This document shows positions 13,701 through 55,711 of a stretch of DNA of 64,000 nt, piece after piece. How positions within the stretch are numbered: position 1 is the first letter of the stretch; every line of letters begins with the position of its first letter. This DNA comes from Syncephalis fuscata (taxonomy: Eukaryota; Zoopagomycota; Zoopagomycetes; Zoopagales; Piptocephalidaceae), in contig JAHLTZ010000005.1 in assembly GCA_025786725.1 (NCBI GenBank), positions 744,001-808,000 on the forward strand, written 5' to 3'. Position numbers and translations under genes: made by a program. The notes beneath the pieces were generated by a model. It ran no database searches. It had not been told where the DNA came from and saw nothing but the letters and a program-made list of their open reading frames with translations.

Positions 13701-15092
13701 GGATTATTATTAATAATATTGAACTAGTAGCTAATACTTAAATAAACGTTTATTGAAAAACAAAAACAAACTACTAATGAAGCAACTATCAAAATAAATA
13801 AAGTGTAATGCAAATAAAAACGATTTAATTAACAAATAGTTTTAAAATTTAAATTTAACCAACAAATAAAACTAGTTTGGCTTATTTAGAGTGTTTTATG
13901 TGTTAGATTTAACAATTAAACAATTCTGAATTACATGAAAGTACTATTGCTTTAAGTAACTTGAGTTAATTAGCTGGTGTATCAAACAAGAGTGAAGATA
14001 TGCAAAATAATGCCGTCAACATGGAATTTGTCATTGATAAACTAGAACAATCTACTCGTAACATTCATTTTTAAACATCGCAGTAGTCGCTCCAGTGTTC
14101 TAATTTAAAAAGTTGTGGAACATGGCGAAAGAAGCTTAAAAGGGTGCTGTGACGAATCATTTAAACCGCTTGATTTGTATTAAATCTTATGATATTTTTA
14201 TTAACTAAATAAAGATAACTTTTCCACAATATTAAGCACGCTATTGGTTGTTTGATGTGATTTGGCAGTTAAATAGCTATAATAGTCACACATTTAAACG
14301 GAGTATCCGCTTTATTGAAGATGAAACTGGCTGTTGAGTGTCATTGATCATTGAACTATTTACTTATCATTATTATTGTACTGTACATATCTATCCTTTA
14401 TACATATACTATATGTCCGTCTATATCATTAATATTGTAAATTGCAAAAACTATATTAATAAAAGCTAAAAGTTTATTGCTAACTGTATTCTTTTAGCAG
14501 ATTTTGATCCATTCCGTTCATTGCTCTTGGCTAATTGCATACAGTATAGTTTTGTTATTACTATTCACGTATTCGTTTTGTCTATTTATTTTGTTTTATA
14601 ATATCGTATGCTTTATTGCCATGTTTTATTAAAAAGCTTCTTTATTCTAATTTCAGCATAATATTGTTTGGCTATATGATAATGATAGCTTTGCTACTAT
14701 CCATACCAATCTATGCCTATAGCTTAGGCGATATAATTATACACATTTTGTTATTAATTTAACTATTTGATTGATAATTGTCATTATTGAATGCAAATAG
14801 AACATGATTAAAGATATAGTAAATTGATTGTATATAGCTAAGATGGAACCATAGTTTTATTACTATAAGCTTGCACAGTTGAATAGAAGCAACTAAATGC
14901 AAGCTTGTTAATAAAATAATGATTCCATTGATTAGAGACTGGATAAACCGGAGCATTGGCCAAAACTTGATATATGGATAGACAGGACGGCGTAGTTGTC
15001 AAATGATCTTGCTTTTCACCGAATATATACCTAAAGTGTATTGGAATAGTGGTTTGGTTGCACTATCAATGCTGATGTCTTGAAACCATCGA
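13701..15092. other. AT-rich spacer downstream of the micro-exon gene
   Basis: AT-rich region. A short plus-strand stretch at about 14000-14070 reads NAVNMEFVIDKLEQSTRNIHF before a stop and may be a gene remnant. I cannot assign it. The part just left of 15093 should contain the 3' untranslated region of the minus-strand micro-exon gene. Confidence 0.4.
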
Positions 15093-17870
15093 TTATGCTG
15101 TATTTACAAATAAAGATATTATATGTTATATGATTAATTTATACTCTATCAATATATAATGTTACTTACGGCCTATTAATAGTAAGTTGTTGATACACAT
15201 GGTGCATAACATGTGATTAGTAAGTAATCAATTAACATACAATACAACTTACATGAGCCTAAGGTTGATTTATTGGTGAATACAGTACATGGTATATATA
15301 ATTAATGTATCGTCAATTAATATACAATACTAATTACCCTCTATTAATATTAAATAATCAGTACAATTAACAAATAGCATAGTTAATGTATAGTCAATTA
15401 ATATACAATATCGCTTACTCTCTATTAATATTAAATAATTGATACAATTGGTAAATAGTATAATTAATGAATAATCAGTTAATATACATTAACTCTTACT
15501 TTCTATTAATATTAAATTATTGATGTACATGGTACACGATATATAATTAGTTAATAGTCAATTAATATACAATACTACTTACTGCCTATTATATTAAGTT
15601 GTTGGCGCACATAGTGCATTGTATACAATTAGTGAATAATCATTAACATACAATACAACTTACAATCTATTAATGTTAAACAATCAGTACAATCAGTAAA
15701 TAGCACAGTTAGCGTATAACCAAATATAATATACAATATCACTTACAATCTATTAATATTAAATAATCAATACAATCAGTAAATAGTATAATTAATGTAT
15801 AATCAAATAATACACAATACAACTTACCCACTATTGATATTAAATAAGTACAATTAGTAAATATTATAGTTAATATCACTACCGCTTACCGCCTGTTAAT
15901 ATTAAATAATTGATACAATCAGTAAATAGTATAGTTAATGTATAGTCAAGGGATATACAATACAACTTACGACCTATTAATATTAAATAATTGGTACAAT
16001 CAGTAAATAGTATAGTTAATGTATAGTCAATAATATAAAATATTACTTACAATCTATTAATAGTAAATAATTATACAATCAGTAAATAACATAGTTAATG
16101 TATAGTCAACTAATATAAATATACTTACAGACTATTAATATTAAATAATCTACAATCAGTAAATAGTATATTAATGTATAGTCAATTAATATACAATACA
16201 ACTTACCTTCTATTAATATTAAATAATTGCTACAATCAGTAAATATCATAGTTAATATCACTACCGCTTACCGCCTATTAATATTAATAATCAATACAAT
16301 CAGTAAATAGCACGGTTAATATATATTAGTTAATATAATATCACTTACTAGCTATTAATATTAAATAATTAATACAATCAGTAAATAGCACAGTTAATGT
16401 ATAGCCAGATAATATAAATACAACTACCACTATTGATATTAAATAATCGGTGCAATCAGTAAATAATATAGTTGATATGTAATAACTATAATATCACTTA
16501 CGCTCTATTAATATTAAACATTGGTACAATCAGTAAATAGTATATTTGATATATAATGATTATAATATCACTTACGCTCTATTAATATTAAATAATTGGT
16601 ACAATCAGTAAATAGCATAATTAATATATGGTTAGTTAATATGCAACACCACTTACCCCCTATTAATATTAAATAATTGGTATCATTAGTAAATAGCATA
16701 GTTATTTATAGTGAGTTAATATGCAATGTTACTTACTAACTATTCCAGCAGTTATTGATGCACAATGCATGACACAATTAATTTATAAGCCAGCACATAC
16801 AATGCTACTTACTGCCTATTAATATTAGGTTATTGATATACATAATATAATTAATGTATAAACTACCAATATACAATGCTACTTACAAGCTATTAATATT
16901 TGTTGATACACACAATACATAAATATAATCAGTGAGTAATTAGTTCATATACAATACAACTTACCAGCTATTGCATTGAATTGTTGATACACATAGTACA
17001 TTATGTATAATTAGTTCATAGTCAGTTAATATGTAATGTTTCTTACCAACTATTCCATCAGGTTATTGACATACAATGAATGACACATAATTAATACATA
17101 ATTAGCTAATATGCAATGCTACTTACTGCCTATTATTATTAAGTCATTATACACAATACACGATATGTAATTAGTCAATGCTCAATTGATATACAATATA
17201 ACTTACAATCTATTAATATTAAGTTGTTGACATACACGGCGCATGGTATAAAATTAACGTATAGTCATTTAATACACACTACACTTTACCCTCTATGTCA
17301 TTAAGTTGTTGATACATACAATACATGATATAATTGATTTATAAGTTATTAATATACAATATCACTTACTGCCTATTAGTATTAGGTCATTGATACAGTG
17401 CATAACATGCAATTAGTAAGTAATCAATTAATATACAATACAACTTACATTGCTCTAATATTAAGTTATTGATGGATGTAGTGCATGACACATAATTAGT
17501 GTATCTCTATTGATATGCAATACAACCTACTAGCTATTAATATTAGTTTATTGATAAACACAGTGCATATCATGTAATTAGTAAGTAATTGATTAATATA
17601 CAATACAACTCACATAGTTCTAATATTAAGTTGTTGATGAATACAGTACATGATACATAATTAGTGAGTAGTTGGTTAATATGCAATATCACTTACGACC
17701 TATTATAATCATTAGTTAAAAATACTATTAGTAAACATAATTCGATAATATATTTGTTAATACTGCAACATACCACCACGACGAACTAAAGTTGGTTTAG
17801 CATCCACCATGGATGTACTGGCCACAATAGCCACGACAATGGTGCAAACGGCGGCAATAGAAAGCTTCAT
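15093..17870 (-). CDS. Secreted six-cysteine prepropeptide built from 33 micro-exons of 3 or 6 nt
   Basis: Exon 1 (17774-17870) encodes 32 residues plus one base: signal peptide MKLSIAAVCTIVVAIVAS, then KPTLVRR, a dibasic Kex2-type site. Then come 33 micro-exons, each preceded by AG and followed by GT. Sites on the plus axis: 17697-99, 17614-19, 17531-33, 17449-54, 17370-72, 17290-92, 17207-09, 17127-29, 17047-49, 16965-67, 16887-89, 16813-15, 16737-39, 16657-59, 16576-78, 16502-04, 16428-29, 16349-51, 16272-74, 16207-09, 16129-31, 16051-53, 15971-73, 15890-92, 15828-30, 15747-49, 15664-66, 15583-85, 15500-02, 15419-21, 15338-40, 15253-58, 15170-72. The last exon starts at 15097 and gives TAA at 15093-15095. 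All introns are phase 1, 53-80 nt. The joined frame has no stop in 37 codons and cysteine spacing C-x2-C-x3-C-x10-C-x4-C-x5-C; total 69 residues. The 16428 exon shows 2 nt; its unit has two single-base losses compared with the unit at 15828. Function unknown: secreted cysteine-rich peptide (effector or antimicrobial type). Confidence 0.85.
15098..17773 (-). repeat. Tandem array of ~80-bp intron units
   Basis: About 34 tandem units of 59-95 bp, mostly 77-84 bp. Read on the minus strand each unit runs GTAAGT, an AT-rich body with TTAATTGACTATAC or similar, TTTACTGATTGT (branch-like TACTGAT), then TTTAATATTAATAG. Two sub-types are seen. Type A has the body AATCAGTAAATAGTATAG (plus strand) and fills most of 15300-16700. 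Type B has GTTGTTGATACACATAGTGC and fills 16740-17690, with copies at 15170-15290 and 15540-15640. Units containing the 6-nt exons share their own variant (CTAATATTAAGTTGTTGATG), and units with the GCA exon share another. The donor varies (GTAAGT, GTGAGT, GTAGGT, GTAATT, GTAAGA, GTAAGC, GTAAAG) but always keeps GT apart from clear base loss. Confidence 0.9.
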
Positions 17871-18209
17871 GGTGATATTGATTTGTTAAGACAAACAAAT
17901 AAAAGAGATAGTAGAGTGTGGTTGGTATAGAATGGAGAGTAGTGCGTGTATAGCAAGAAGTAGAGTGTGATAATGATATTCTAGTTGGTTGTGTATATTT
18001 TGTGGGCTATTTATACTTATGATTATGCTGAGATGCCAGTATACTGTAGTATATGAGGTACAACATTGATGTGTAGTATAACCAATAAAGCAATCCAAAT
18101 AATGATTTGAGGTCCGCGTGTACCAATAGATTGATGACATGATAAAACACCCCAATTTTGATTTCAACCTGCTCGGCATTTACACAGATAACGCGGCAAT
18201 TCCAATGAG
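17871..18209 (-). promoter_or_regulatory. 5' leader and promoter region of the micro-exon gene
   Basis: Upstream DNA of the minus-strand secreted-peptide gene, containing the TATA box at 18008-18015 and a pyrimidine-rich leader (TCTCTTTTATTTGTTTGTC) just before the ATG. A minus-strand open frame at 17886-18179 runs through the TATA box, has no domain and is probably fortuitous. Confidence 0.5.
18008..18015 (-). promoter_or_regulatory. TATA box of the micro-exon gene
   Basis: Minus strand TATAAATA, about 138 bp upstream of the ATG at 17870. The paralogous gene at 45080 has a TATA-like element at a very similar distance. The leader just before both starts ends in the same TATCACC/CATCACC context before ATGAAGCTTTCTATTGC. 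Confidence 0.55.
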
Positions 18210-18612
18210 CAGTACATATGCGATAGAAACATGTACATTATTCTGCATTTTTTGTTACACAATTTAACTATTTGGTAAAAACAAGTATATTATTTAGTTT
18301 TGTAAAAGCGATAGTAATGTCTTTGCCGCCATTTCTACCGATTCAGTCCTCAATATCTGCATGCATACTAAACAGCACACAACCTGCCCAGTCTTTACTT
18401 CAATCTGTTAGTCATTTGCACGAGTGCTGTAGCGGTGTTATAATCCAGTACATATGATAAAAATAGACATATTCGCCTGTATTTTTGTTACACAGTCTAA
18501 CTATTTGGTAAAAACAAGTATGTTGTTTGGTTTTGTAAACATGGTAAAGACGCCTTTGCTGCCATTTCTACCGATTCGGTCCTCAATATCTGCATGCATA
18601 CTAAACAGCACA
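18210..18612. repeat. Tandem duplication of about 236 bp
   Basis: Two direct copies, 18210-18445 and 18446-18612 (second copy shorter). Shared blocks include CAGTACATATG, TAACTATTTGGTAAAAACAAGT, GCCATTTCTACCGATTC and CTCAATATCTGCATGCATAC followed by TAAACAGCACA. The two differ at scattered bases, so the duplication is not brand new. No domain-bearing ORF. It lies upstream of the micro-exon gene and may hold regulatory sequence; that is a guess. Confidence 0.75.
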
Positions 18613-19654
18613 TAGTACTGGCGCAAAAACAAGTCTAATATATCAAAATAATATTTTTATACACATTTTTACTGCTGTACATAGGTCAGCCATAATTTTT
18701 AAATTATAAAATGTATTGATTGGTACATGTATGCATTTCATTCGACACTATGCCCATTGTTATCGGGTAATCATTGCTTTGAATTCACAATGTATCACAT
18801 CCAGGCATATCATGCCACATGCTGTGCAACTACCATCATTCAAATGACGGCTAATCTAAATTACCTGAAATCAATTATACAATAAGTACTATTTGTAGGG
18901 TGATGCATCATAGCATTTTGAGCAATGGAACATTCCAACAAGTCATTTTCGTCATCAGTTTTCAGGTGTAGACTAAATTGCATCGGCTAGATTGCACACA
19001 ATACAATATGCAGACACTAGACTAAACACAATAGAAAGTTCTGCTCAAATATCAGCAATTTCAAGTGCATAATATCAATGGGCTGCATATCAACCGGTAA
19101 TCATCCAAGGCCTAACTGCTGTCCACATTTCTGAAACCACTTCTGACAAGTCAAGCAAGATGGAATATAGAAAAACAATTAACAGCTCAAAGGCTTACTG
19201 GTTTAACCTATAGCAAATTATTATAGCTATGCTAATATAACTATATTTATCAAAAGTTGACCGTTGCTGATGCAATTAGAACAGCAGCAATATTAAACAG
19301 ATAACGCACAGAAAACAGAGAGCTGTAGATAGAACTAAAGCAATAAGTTTTAGTAATTAAATAACTTATTATTGTCACTATACTTTATAATTCTGGTTGT
19401 TTGTATGAATAAATATTTACAGTCACATTGTAACTTCTTATATACTCACATTTATACAACCACCAACTAAGCCAATTATTATAAGACTTAATCTAATATT
19501 TATCAGAGTAAACAGCTAGTATTATACACTATTGCAATATAAAAACATTTTTTATTTATTGATTATTAATAAAAGTGTATAGCTATATATTAAAATAAAA
19601 CAAAACATCGGATTGAGCGCGCAATATTTATATGGTCAAGTCATTTTTACCTTG
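18613..19654. other. Intergenic spacer, nothing recognised
   Basis: About 1 kb of AT-rich DNA with no supported ORF, RNA gene or repeat unit that I can see. Confidence 0.5.
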
Positions 19655-44151: not shown

Positions 44152-45080
44152 CTATTTCCGAGTCCCTATAAATTTTAAAGCATTTATAATTTATGCAAAT
44201 ACATCGAGATAGCTATATTATATACTGTTTACATATTAGACAGATTATGACTTACCACTGTTGGCAATTTTACAAATAAAAACATGGAATTTTACTTAAT
44301 TAGTATTTGCTACACATCAAGTACAAAGACTTACCGACTATTATATTGATTTAATAAATATCACTGAATGAGTCGCAAAATATTTGTATATCAGTCTAAC
44401 TTACTCCCTATTATTATCATTGTTAAAAAGCATGTTAAAAGTTAGTAAGTTTATGATAGTCTATTAGTAAATAATGTATCTTACTATCTATTTAGTTAAT
44501 ACACCAAATGGGCATTAGCAAGCAACATATAGTGGTTAGTTTTAATTAAGTGCTGGAAGGCGTGATTTACTATCTAATGGAATCAATAAACATACGCACA
44601 CACATATATTATTGTTAGTATTTATATAACAGTAATAAGGCACGACTTACTTTTTGTAATAGTTGTCAAATATAACAGTGTCAAGTTATATTTAATTAGC
44701 ATTAGTAAACATAAAAAATTTTCACTTACCATTTATTAATTGTTATTCAACAGATAGCACATTGGCTGTTATTATAAAACAATCCCATGATCGTTTTCCA
44801 AGCTGGAACTTACCAACTATTGGCAGTAAATTATTAAAACGTAGCAAAGCAGAGAACGTATAATGAGTCAACAAATAGCTATCTTTTAGTTACAACTTAC
44901 GTTCTAAAAATCACCCATTCATTAAATAAATAGAGTTTAAATTAGTGTATTGAATATCTAATAGCATTTCAATGTACTTCGGCGATTGAGAACCGGCTTA
45001 GCGTCTGCCATACTAATACTAGTTACAAAAATAACGGCCAAAGCTGCAGTCGCACAAATGGTAGCAATAGAAAGCTTCAT
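44152..45080 (-). CDS. Paralogous secreted peptide with 3-nt micro-exons (short, partly degraded)
   Basis: Exon 1 (44978-45080) starts with the same 17 bases as the gene at 17870 and encodes MKLSIATICATAALAVIF, then AKPVLNRR: signal peptide plus dibasic site, 34 residues and one base, phase 1 as in the larger gene. The donor is weak (GTACAT). Candidate 3-nt exons follow at 44901-03, 44814-16, 44730-32, 44651-53, 44570-72, 44485-87, 44405-07, 44335-37 and 44256-57 (one base apparently lost), and a last exon from 44165 ends at TAG 44152-44154. The exons at 44730 and 44651 are preceded by AA instead of AG; they may be skipped, mutated or misread. With or without them the frame stays open, giving 45-47 residues and, unlike the larger gene, no cysteine in the mature part. 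It is either a minimal relative or a decaying copy. Confidence 0.55.
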
Positions 45081-51794: not shown

Positions 51795-52483
51795 TACCGC
51801 CATTGAATATAATAAATAGAATACCATTGATTCCAAGTAGATATATGCAATTATAGATCTACCATGCTTAATGTATAGGTATAGGTATAGGTATAGGTAT
51901 AGAAATAAAGAAAGGAGGCATCTATATATAAATAGGATGATGTATAAAGTGATGGGTATATGATCAATGTATGCAGTGTTGTATCACCGACATCGAATTG
52001 ACATCCCCCTTGAAGAATACCAAGAAATATGGCATTAACTGATGGGTGTCCATTTTTCTTATACAAGTGACTAGTGTGTATACGCGTCTAGTTTTTACTT
52101 TAACACCACTTAAAACACTTCTTTCTACTTCTTCTACTTCTACTTCTACTATCTATTTAGATTAGTGGTCTATTCTCTTTTATTCTCATCTCATCAAGTG
52201 CCTTGTAGAAACATTGATGGTTGTTGTTTTGGTATAACTGCGCTATTGATTCTCCACTTACTCTCCTTTGTGTGAACATAAATAGTCCCTTGTTCGCAGG
52301 CGAATACCACGAGTGCTGTCGTTCTAACTAGCGTGCCATCTCTTTACACTAGCATAACCAAGCGGTTGCATTATTGGTTCTATATATACCCATATATACA
52401 ATTCTTTCTTTACTCTTCAACTCTTTAGCTGCTAGTCGAACAAGTATAGTCGTGTGTAGTTACTTACTCGACGATAGCCTACT
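51795..52483. other. Spacer with hexanucleotide and pyrimidine repeats
   Basis: Between the chloride channel and Kex2. A tandem (TATAGG)n repeat lies at about 51877-51902, and a CTT/CTA-rich pyrimidine tract at about 52118-52150 sits in the probable Kex2 promoter. No gene seen. Confidence 0.5.
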
Positions 52484-55400
52484 ATGCTATACTCGATACG
52501 CACGCTGTTGCGTCGTTGGCAGCCTGCATCGTTCAATGATCCCGCTCACTTATTCTCATCCCGTTGGCCGTCCATTTATAACCAACGAATTAAAGCAACC
52601 ACTCTACTCGGTCTAGTATTTGCGGGTATAATACTTGTAGTGTTACTTGGTTATATGACTGTAGTCAATCATCAAATGATAACCAGATCACTGTTAATCA
52701 AGCCTAAAACAACAACAACAACAACAACAACAGATGCAGATACAACAGTGTCACAACCACTTGATAAATTACTAGCCACCAAGCCTCAATTACCTTTATT
52801 ATCAATTAATAATGAGCATACAGCCAATTCATTACATCCACATGTCTATCCAATGGATCATGAACAGTATCGTTATTATGTTTTATCGTTAACCGACGAT
52901 CATATCGATGAAGTGGCTTCATTACTTGAAATTGATTATGTAGGACCTGTAGGAGAATTGGCATCATTTCATTTATTCCGTACCTCTTTGAATAACATTG
53001 ATGTATCAGTTCATTCTACTAAACCAACCTCATCCCTATTGTCTATTATGGGCGATAGTACAATGAGTTGTTCAACGCTAGTTAAAAGATCTTCATTGGC
53101 CAAACGCGATATTCAATATTTAGTTGATAGAGATGAAGTGATGCAACAGTACAATTCATTAGTTGAATCAACACTACATCCAAATCGTTTAAGTCGACGA
53201 GATATTCAAGTGGTACTGTCAATTAAGCATATATCACCACAAATCCCTTATAAACGACATCGACGTGGTGTTGTTTCATTTAAAGGCAATTTTGATCAAC
53301 AAAAGAAGATTGTTAATGCATTAGGCATTCACGATCCAGGCTATCGTTATCAATGGCATCTCTTTAATCGTGATCAGGCAAAGAATGATATCAATATTAC
53401 TAGTGTATGGCAACAAGGGATTACTGGCAAGAATGTGGTTATTGCACTCGTTGATGATGGTATTGATTTTACTAGTGAAGATATTAAAGAAAACTTTGTA
53501 AGTATTATATATATATGTATATATGTATATATGCATATAGATAGATAGATAGATAAATTAAGATTAGTAGTTTCTAACTAGTTATATAGTTTGCTAAAGG
53601 TTCCTATGATTTTAATGATCATGTTAAAATGCCTATGCCTCGTTTACCTGAAGATGTACATGGTACACGGTGTGCAGGAGAAGTAGCTGCTGTACGTAAT
53701 AATGTATGCGGTATTGGTATTGCGTATGAAGCAAAAGTAGCAGGTAAATACTCATTTATTTATCGTATTTACAAGTTAATATAACTATTTAATAGGAATC
53801 CGTATTCTATCATCAGATATTACAGATGTCGATGAAGCATTATCGCTCAACTATGGCTATCAAGATAACCATATTTATTCTTGTAGTTGGGGTCCACCTG
53901 ATGATGGTCAGTCAGTAGATGGACCACACACAGTGGTACTTGATGCCATGATCAACGCTATTCGTAAAGGACGTGACGGTAAAGGCACTGTATTTGTATT
54001 TGCCTCTGGTAATGGCGGTATCAATGATGATCATTGTAACTGCGATGGCTACACCAATAGTATCTATTCGGTAACAGTCGGGGCTATTGATCGATATAAC
54101 CAACATCCATACTATTCCGAGGCATGTTCAGCCATGATGGTCGTTGCTTATAGCAGTGGCAGTGGCAGTTACATAGTAAGTACCCAGTATAGTTACCGGT
54201 GGATGTTATTAATAGCTGAATAGTATACAACGAATAATGGACAAAATAAATGTTATGGGCAACATGGCGGTACATCGGCCGCTGCTCCACTAGTAGCGGG
54301 TATCTACGCCCTTGTTCTATCTATTCGGTAATTATTTTACAGTTATATAATTGGTGAAACTCATTGCTGTTCAATAGACCCGATTTAACGTGGCGAGATA
54401 TACAACATTTAACTGTGAATTCAGCTGTTACTTTTAATGAAGAAGATAAAAGTTGGTCTAAAACCGCCACTGGTCTAATGCATAGTAACAAGTATGGATT
54501 CGGTAAAATTGATACATTCCGTATAGTTGAACTAGCCAAGAACCATACCATAGTTAATCCACAAGCCTTTATTGAAAGTGACATGTCCCATGTTAATCAA
54601 ACCATTCACTATGGACGAGATGGAATTAATAATTCTATTACACTGACTCAATCACAAATGACCACCCATGGATTCCAACATTTGGAACATATTACAGTCA
54701 CCGTGAATATTGAACATGACCGTCGAGGTGATCTAGAAGTGTTCTTAATATCGCCCAATCATGTGATATCTAAACTATCGGCCATTCGTAAAAATGATCA
54801 AAGTCTAGATGGATTCAAAGATTGGACATTTATGACTGTTAAGCATTGGTAAGTAATGGGGTATTTATTGTTGTTAATACTAACCATATTATAGGGATGA
54901 ATCACCCATTGGAGAGTGGACATTGAATGTACGGGCCAATATCAATCCTAGACTAAAAGGCCGTCTAGTAGATTGGAGGATTAAATGGTGGGGCAGTTCA
55001 GTGTCTAATCACTCGACCAATGCACCATCTATTGCACCTATACCAGCACCTATGCCGATAGCCACCAATACTACATCTACTTCCAAGATAGCAGTTGAAC
55101 CACCGAATGAACAGAATAAGACAATGGCTTCTGCTCATAACAGCACGACCGATGAAGCCAATCAAGCTAATAGCACGATGAGTATTAATCCAAATAATCC
55201 TGGATCAAGTGTCGCTCGAATGCACTTTATTGGTTATGCAGCATTTGGTGTTGTACTCGCTCTAAGTATTGCCGGTCTAGCTTATTGGGGCAAGAAGCGA
55301 TTCTATGACCGTCGTCGACGTGGTTATGGCAATGATGGGTATGAATTCCATGCCTTGGATCTAGATGCAGATACAGATACAGTGAATGGTATTACACAAC

Positions 55401-55711
55401 AAACCCGTCGATATGTAACTACGCGTGAATTGTATGAGGCATTTGGTGAAGACGATGATGATGATGATGAAAATGATAGTAATAGTCAGCATGAAGAAGA
55501 TGAGGAAGAGGATAATGAAGAGGGTAAACGTATGCTTAATACTAAATCCATAGAATCTACATTGCCTATAACATCATCGATAGCCAGAACAACCCTTAAT
55601 TCATCTATTACTACACCAACACGGGCACGTACAGGAGAATTAATGTATGAAAATGAATTACTGTCTGAAGATGATGATGATCCAAATAATCATCCATCCA
55701 CGACTCATTGA
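52484..55711 (+). CDS. KEX2: Kexin-type subtilisin protease (prohormone-processing)
   Basis: Late-Golgi serine endoprotease that cuts secreted precursors after KR/RR. Five or six exons. Order: N-terminal helix LLGLVFAGIILVVLLGYMTV at about residues 42-61; a long prodomain of about 260 residues with its own basic sites, ending KRHRRGVV, the likely self-cleavage site. The S8 catalytic domain has ALVDDGIDF (catalytic Asp), DVHGTRCAGE (His), SCSWGPPDDG (Asp in place of Asn for the oxyanion hole, as in kexins), FASGNGG and GQHGGTSAAAPLVAG (Ser). Then the P-domain (ITVTVNIEHDRRGDLEVFLI), an S/T/N-rich stalk, a transmembrane helix (IGYAAFGVVLALSIAGLAYW) and an acidic cytosolic tail with D/E runs. 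The prodomain is longer than in yeast Kex2 and the first helix is set unusually far from the N-terminus. The RR sites in the two micro-exon peptides of this window are candidate substrates. Confidence 0.94.

Follow-up and report, generated by a model that had tools for sequence, protein, structure and literature searches.

Can an array that looks at first sight like a minisatellite, with triplets between its repeats, be read as one protein-coding gene whose exons are mostly a single codon long? The question is raised by a locus on the minus strand of the window, by which we mean the whole stretch of 64,000 nucleotides of Syncephalis fuscata DNA that was analysed. An earlier note, made from the sequence alone, had resolved this apparent minisatellite into GT...AG introns around micro-exons, and all of these sites could be located on the minus strand. 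The gene runs from a 97-nt signal-peptide exon through 32 micro-exons, 29 of 3 nt and three of 6 nt, to a last exon with the stop codon. The note had counted 33 micro-exons, 30 of them of 3 nt; its three units of 6 nt stand but the total does not, and the surplus unit probably corresponds to a decayed one at 16429-16428 (AG-TG-GTAGTT, 2 nt), whose place is now inside an intron of 150 nt. The features are as follows, all on the minus strand and in the order of transcription.

17871-18140, minus: 5′ flank (promoter/5′ UTR), alike in micro-exon genes and several intronless paralogues by flank comparison
17774-17870, minus: exon 1, coding part of 97 nt with ATG, signal peptide and KPTLVRR, ending in phase 1
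17697-17699, minus: micro-exon 1, GTC
17614-17619, minus: micro-exon 2, AACTAT (6 nt)
17531-17533, minus: micro-exon 3, CTA
17449-17454, minus: micro-exon 4, AGCAAT (6 nt)
17370-17372, minus: micro-exon 5, GCA
17290-17292, minus: micro-exon 6, AGG, weak donor GTAAAG, absent from both automated decodings
17207-17209, minus: micro-exon 7, ATT
17127-17129, minus: micro-exon 8, GCA
17047-17049, minus: micro-exon 9, TTG
16965-16967, minus: micro-exon 10, CTG
16887-16889, minus: micro-exon 11, CTT
16813-16815, minus: micro-exon 12, GCA
16737-16739, minus: micro-exon 13, TTA, absent from the earlier decoding
16657-16659, minus: micro-exon 14, GGG
16576-16578, minus: micro-exon 15, AGC
16502-16504, minus: micro-exon 16, AGC
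16428-16429, minus: decayed 2-nt unit within the 150-nt intron, presumably skipped
16349-16351, minus: micro-exon 17, CTA
16272-16274, minus: micro-exon 18, GCG
16207-16209, minus: micro-exon 19, AAG
16129-16131, minus: micro-exon 20, TCT
16051-16053, minus: micro-exon 21, ATT
15971-15973, minus: micro-exon 22, GTC
15890-15892, minus: micro-exon 23, GCG
15828-15830, minus: micro-exon 24, TGG
15747-15749, minus: micro-exon 25, ATT
15664-15666, minus: micro-exon 26, ATT
15583-15585, minus: micro-exon 27, GCA
15500-15502, minus: micro-exon 28, AAA
15419-15421, minus: micro-exon 29, AGA
15338-15340, minus: micro-exon 30, AGG
15253-15258, minus: micro-exon 31, GCTCAT (6 nt), absent from the later decoding
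15170-15172, minus: micro-exon 32, GCC
14750-15097, minus: last exon, in which 2 nt finish the final codon, with TAA at 15095-15093 and a 3′ UTR/3′ flank alike in paralogues; lower end approximate, by eye

Of the 33 introns of this gene, 32 are 59-80 nt long and one, at the decayed unit, is 150 nt; GTAAGT begins 23 of the 33 and AATAG ends 27, with weak sites in places (e.g. AGG|GTAAAG). All of the micro-exons are in phase 1, and the joined frame stays open to the stop in the last exon, giving a predicted pre-peptide of 68 amino acids with a dibasic site and, after VRR, a mature part of 37 residues with six cysteines in the pattern C-x2-C-x3-C-x10-C-x4-C-x5-C. The phase, the open frame, the cysteine pattern and the stop in the last exon had been described in the earlier note, together with a signal-peptide exon and dibasic site directly before the array (here KPTLVRR at 17870-17774), and each was recovered on joining the exons. 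Two automated decoders each found 30 of the 32 micro-exons, one losing AGG and TTA and the other AGG and GCTCAT; all 32 were placed from a hand-made list, so that their positions and frame were confirmed rather than discovered. An Rfam search of 14500-18700 gave no match.

The spacing of acceptor and donor recurs throughout the genome. The motif TTAATAG-NNN-GTAAGT occurs 1992 times in S. fuscata (911 + 1081) against 0 + 1 in a backward-read control, and the same motif with a spacer of NN or NNNN occurs genome-wide only 13 (control 8) and five times (control 4) respectively; the AG-NNN-GT spacing is far beyond chance. As 431 of these motifs lie in 25 decoded loci (see below), the 1992 extrapolate to approximately 115 micro-exon genes, a figure in which near-duplicate contigs may be included. 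L035 and L036, and likewise L055 and L056, encode identical proteins on different contigs, and L057 and L058, also located on separate contigs, have an identical 5′ flank (0/295 differences); these pairs may represent recent duplication or unmerged haplotypes, and copy counts may be inflated. In similarity searches the window gene had at least 72 matching pieces in the genome, at some 40 places by count (40 of 350 candidates scored); a query of its 5′ flank with exon 1 matched every one of the 40 candidates scored, the gene itself among them, at 87-100% (314 candidates in all); and a signal-exon protein as query matched at least 150 genome places (150 of 324 candidates scored).

A second, divergent family member lies in the window at 45080-44180 on the minus strand, with the signal exon MKLSIATICATAALAVIFVTSISMADAKPVLNRR (by eye) and AG-NNN-GTAAG units at 44903, 44816, 44487, 44407 and 44337. 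Its introns are not visibly alike, and it looks old or partly decayed.

A splice-site model free of frame constraints was run on 27 loci and decoded 25 of them; L034 and L060 were undecodable, the latter not fitting the expected first donor, and L038, L048, L050, L052 and L053 (partial sequence) are outside the decoded set. The 25 loci contain 826 micro-exons in arrays of 24-42, comprising 791 of 3 nt, 32 of 6 nt and three of 2 nt, so that 823 of the 826 are 3 or 6 nt and thus multiples of three. The decoded copies have a first exon of 94 or 97 nt, which places the start of the micro-exon units at codon position 2, and intron length is 53-85 nt in 731 of 742 introns (21 loci). In 22 of the 25 the frame that begins at the ATG runs uninterrupted until a stop codon in the last exon, whereas L017, L021 and L059 are broken; with the decoding used, 15 of the 25 have exactly six cysteines after residue 31 and the others between 0 and 8. 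In a scan with a splice model that had been trained on 3-nt units, the best donor lay 3 nt from the acceptor in 555 of 639 good acceptors and 2 nt away in two, with no qualifying donor in 82. An earlier decoder found 16 of 19 loci open; it overlooked weak exons, did not succeed with L024 or L027 and called one 9-nt and one 7-nt exon. The 7-nt exon broke L026, which is open in the later decoding, and such calls therefore depend on the decoder. By eye, the window gene and the majority of the members listed have a signal peptide and a dibasic site ahead of the mature part; the dibasic site is absent from L033 (VHH), L047 (ARQ) and L055/L056 (CCG). Intron 25 of L024 and of L027 measures 488 and 493 nt, respectively, at the same place in two otherwise regular arrays, and apparent GC donors (GCAAGT) are present in some array units of L009 and L017.

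The coding content of the arrays was assessed by shuffling the order of the micro-exons in 15 of 21 genes, L017 and L021 being dropped as frame-shifted and L010, L020, L026 and L027 as near-duplicates. The joined frames contain two stops against an expected 33.4 (sd 4.2), and none of 20000 shuffles was as low; by reading, these two are the terminal stops of L013 and L019, leaving no internal stop at all. Cysteine codons number 90 against an expected 43.9 (sd 4.7), again unequalled in 20000 shuffles. By phase, the same strings have 0/518 stops in the phase used and 4/533 and 44/518 in the other two. For the window gene, both this test and the comparison with intronless genes described below used a decoding without two of its 32 exons.

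Splice sites were compared in four close pairs of genes (L019/L020, L010/L011, L025/L026 and L024/L027), the exons having been called in just one gene of every pair, a procedure biased towards intact sites in that gene. Differences were found at 6/1680 positions of the 6-nt splice cores, 283/9792 other intron sites and 21/429 micro-exon sites; addition of a fifth pair, L057/L058, which has lost units, gave 9/1990, 383/11465 and 37/513 respectively. Positive selection was sought in the four close pairs and was not found, pN/pS being 0.61 from 21 changes, and the peptides nevertheless vary. The arrays might be taken for pseudogenes, relics of genes that were formerly spliced, since three decoded loci are broken, L060 departs from the expected first donor and the window gene contains one decayed unit; however, splice cores conserved between close pairs, and 22 of 25 decoded copies open with variable cysteine-rich peptides, make this reading very improbable.

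That the pieces are to be read together as one peptide is indicated by intronless sister genes in the same genome. Among the 20 intron-poor loci of the tree set, 13 (L033, L035/L036, L037, L040, L041, L042, L044, L045, L046, L047, L049 and L051; 12 distinct proteins) encode at least six mature-part cysteines in similar order, as judged by eye. L055/L056 are likewise intronless, with a similar signal exon and, by eye, at least six cysteines in similar order in one open frame. Across the mature part, spliced L028 and contiguous L055 are identical at 77 of 111 aligned nucleotides, a match equalled by 0 of 5000 micro-exon shuffles, and the virtual L028 peptide matched two contiguous genome loci at E 7.7e-6. 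When the 22 open micro-exon genes were compared with 13 contiguous genes chosen for their cysteines, seven (L010, L011, L015, L016, L024, L027 and L028) beat all of 300 shuffles, or five if the two near-duplicate pairs among them count once. The other 15, with the window gene among them, failed to beat all 300 against these 13 genes; the window gene, in its 30-exon decoding, had no significant contiguous partner there (best L035, with 30 of 300 shuffles as good), and a translated search with its mature peptide gave no match. Seven further signal-exon members (L029, L030, L031, L032, L039, L043 and L054) are read as intron-free and differ in their mature parts. One of these, L029 (412-948), has a similar signal peptide in a protein of 178 amino acids that is N/Q-rich and in which the cysteine framework is absent.

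These comparisons bear on two other readings of the array. It could be a noncoding minisatellite inside one large intron that is spliced out whole, the AG-NNN-GT spacing being an accident; the units are indeed tandem repeats, and a direct junction of exon 1 with the last exon would preserve the frame and encode a short peptide. We consider this extremely improbable, given that the avoidance of stops and the excess of cysteines both depend on triplet order, that splice cores are conserved around variable triplets and that intronless paralogues carry the joined sequence in order for seven of 22 genes. Alternatively, single codons might be skipped to yield many isoforms, the combinatorial output being itself the function. 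Almost every unit has a length divisible by three and the same phase, so that skipping any of these would leave the frame intact, and some units have weak sites; yet the common order of cysteines and the contiguous paralogues point to one full-length product, and the splice cores are well conserved, which leaves combinatorial splicing improbable as the function of the array.

The proposal of the earlier note, a single secreted-peptide gene assembled from serial 3-nt exons, is therefore strongly supported for the window gene, on the basis of the family architecture, stop avoidance, cysteine excess, splice-core conservation and ordered intronless matches. Very probably it is a protein-coding gene of S. 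fuscata belonging to a large family of secreted cysteine-rich peptides, in which the mature part is put together from 24-42 serial phase-1 exons. The architecture, open frame, conservation and intronless counterparts on which this reading is built are properties of the DNA sequence.

For the splicing of such a gene, the sequential or recursive model suggested in the note is reasonable. Introns would be recognised across the intron (intron definition), for which a length of about 78 nt is suitable. As an exon of 3 nt is too small for the machinery of both neighbours, the two flanking introns could presumably not be engaged simultaneously, and neighbouring introns would be removed one after another until all of the codons had been joined. 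The pre-peptide would then be exported and cut after VRR by a kexin-type protease. A gene for a kexin (subtilisin-type), a class expected to cut after VRR, lies in the same window at 52478-55711 on the plus strand (extent by eye from open reading frames). Syncephalis species, of which S. fuscata is placed in the Zoopagales, are described as ubiquitous mycoparasites, and the likely role of the putative peptide would be that of an effector or antimicrobial peptide acting outside the cell against a fungal host.

As each unit of codon and intron is frame-neutral and the introns are alike, units could be gained by duplication, dropped or swapped with the frame kept intact, and the array would act as a cassette of codons for a peptide that changes fast. 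Change at the level of units is seen in L010 and L011, which differ by a block of units, and in L016, which holds a repeated run of them; further, 53 within-gene intron pairs share at least 70% of their 8-mers (18 of 25 loci examined). It is conceivable, although we hold it only tentatively, that the parasite reshuffles, duplicates and deletes single codons by recombination in this way and that peptides are sometimes fixed in intronless form via their own spliced cDNA.

How the two forms of the gene are related was addressed with a 47-row tree built from the 5′ flank together with the signal exon. This tree has 13 changes between micro-exon and contiguous forms, and well-supported branches force at least four of these; as few changes sufficed in 75 of 500 label shuffles, which shows that the two forms are hardly clustered, on a tree whose bootstrap is unsettled and in which 25 of 43 inner branches are open. 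When 11 intronless loci were compared with 20 micro-exon loci, the best 5′ alignment extended at least 150 bp above the ATG in nine, and for shorter distances in L031 (~104 bp) and L055 (~51 bp). In the 3′ region, 959 bp are common to L033 and L017, reaching some 800 bp beyond the first AATAAA of L033; L031 and L030, for which equally long sequence could be compared, align over no more than ~260 bp and ~350 bp respectively; L032 has no match; and for the other intronless loci the compared DNA was too short to be informative. An origin of the intronless genes as simple retrocopies is disfavoured by the shared 5′ flanks and the 959-bp match of L033, although single loci may have arisen in this manner. 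From the mixture of forms on the flank tree and the shared flanks we infer, by parsimony, that intronless paralogues would have arisen repeatedly and in place, each by losing its whole set of introns in a single event such as recombination with a cDNA. A tree mixed in this way might also result if flanks had been exchanged by recombination.

The opposite direction of change, in which related introns burst in the manner of introners into nearly every codon of a contiguous and ancestral peptide gene, concerns the origin of the arrays and is compatible with the micro-exon gene structure. It draws on the mutual similarity of the introns, on the intron-free members with other mature parts in the wider signal-exon family and on the occurrence of introner-like elements in fungi (PMC4457414). 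However, insertion alone would not restrict exons to 3 or 6 nt, any spacing being neutral, and yet hardly any units are spaced at 2 or 4 nt; the forms are, moreover, intermixed on the 5′-flank tree, and repeated gain of some 30 introns would be costly, with the caveat that flank recombination could mimic the intermixing. We regard an invasion of this kind as unlikely.

Among known systems, the nearest architectures are the micro-exon genes (MEGs) of Schistosoma and the bicycle genes of aphids. The products of the latter carry two CYC motifs. Both systems had been named in the earlier note as having small exons, and both do (PMC10526429; PMC9168663). The MEGs are described as encoding secreted parasite proteins from many short exons, mostly multiples of three, that follow a signal peptide, and as hard for automatic annotation; they have 10-20 short exons, mostly of 15 bp (range given as 6-81 bp in the body of the paper and as 3-81 bp in its abstract), with introns of 0.1-5 kb (PMC10526429). 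The S. fuscata genes are similar in having many micro-exons, mostly multiples of three (823 of 826 being 3 or 6 nt), behind a signal exon, and differ in the number and size of the exons (24-42, each 3 or 6 nt), in their mutually similar introns of about 78 nt and in belonging to a fungus. Bicycle genes encode fast-evolving putative effectors from an average of ~17 exons, the small internal ones nearly all starting from codon position 2, and an aphid megacycle gene has more than 100 micro-exons (PMC9168663). The internal exons of S. fuscata likewise start at codon position 2; bicycle genes, however, are insect genes, and the excerpted account describes neither arrays of one-codon exons nor intronless paralogues (PMC9168663).

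A protein search with the spliced pre-peptide of the window gene, by a method that needs shared exact words of five residues, found only two hypothetical proteins, both of S. fuscata. These two annotated proteins (P0001 and P0002) have the signal exon with a tail unlike the cysteine-rich peptides, which suggests that automatic annotation may miss such genes. For nine chosen mature peptides, Pfam profiles assigned no family, the scorpion short toxin profile Toxin_2 appearing in one of the nine (4.7e-5) and nothing for the window peptide, and a PDB profile search of the same nine gave a best E of 0.98.

Recursive splicing sites of zero length consist of AG|GT inside a long intron and retain nothing. 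They are not matched by S. fuscata, where AG-NNN-GT keeps 3 nt between the two sites. Very small exons have been described elsewhere: one of 3 nt in Drosophila hth (PMC7392893); one of 1 nt in Arabidopsis APC11, where intron definition and removal of the two flanking introns in succession are discussed (PMC4674806); one of 1 nt in Fusarium CYP621A, supported by an intronless relative (PMC12940212); and two of 3 nt in a fungal lipS gene (PMC5639578). The hth, APC11 and CYP621A genes resemble those of S. fuscata in that spliceosomes can evidently include exons of 1-3 nt, but these published excerpts give one such exon per gene, as opposed to 24-42 in series. Introners are described as families of sequence-similar introns (PMC9860276), and the S. 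fuscata introns are similar to each other, both as rows of tandem repeats and as intron pairs; introners, however, are spread over many genes, whereas these introns are in tandem, in one gene family and at one-codon spacing.

Neither serial 3-nt exons nor this S. fuscata family was described among the matches listed in the open-licence PMC literature; in that literature, single exons of 1-3 nt and micro-exon families are known, and a gene family with dozens of such exons in series was not found. The family would offer a natural test system for a spliceosome facing dozens of nearly overlapping sites, and for exon-intron structure as an engine of peptide diversity.
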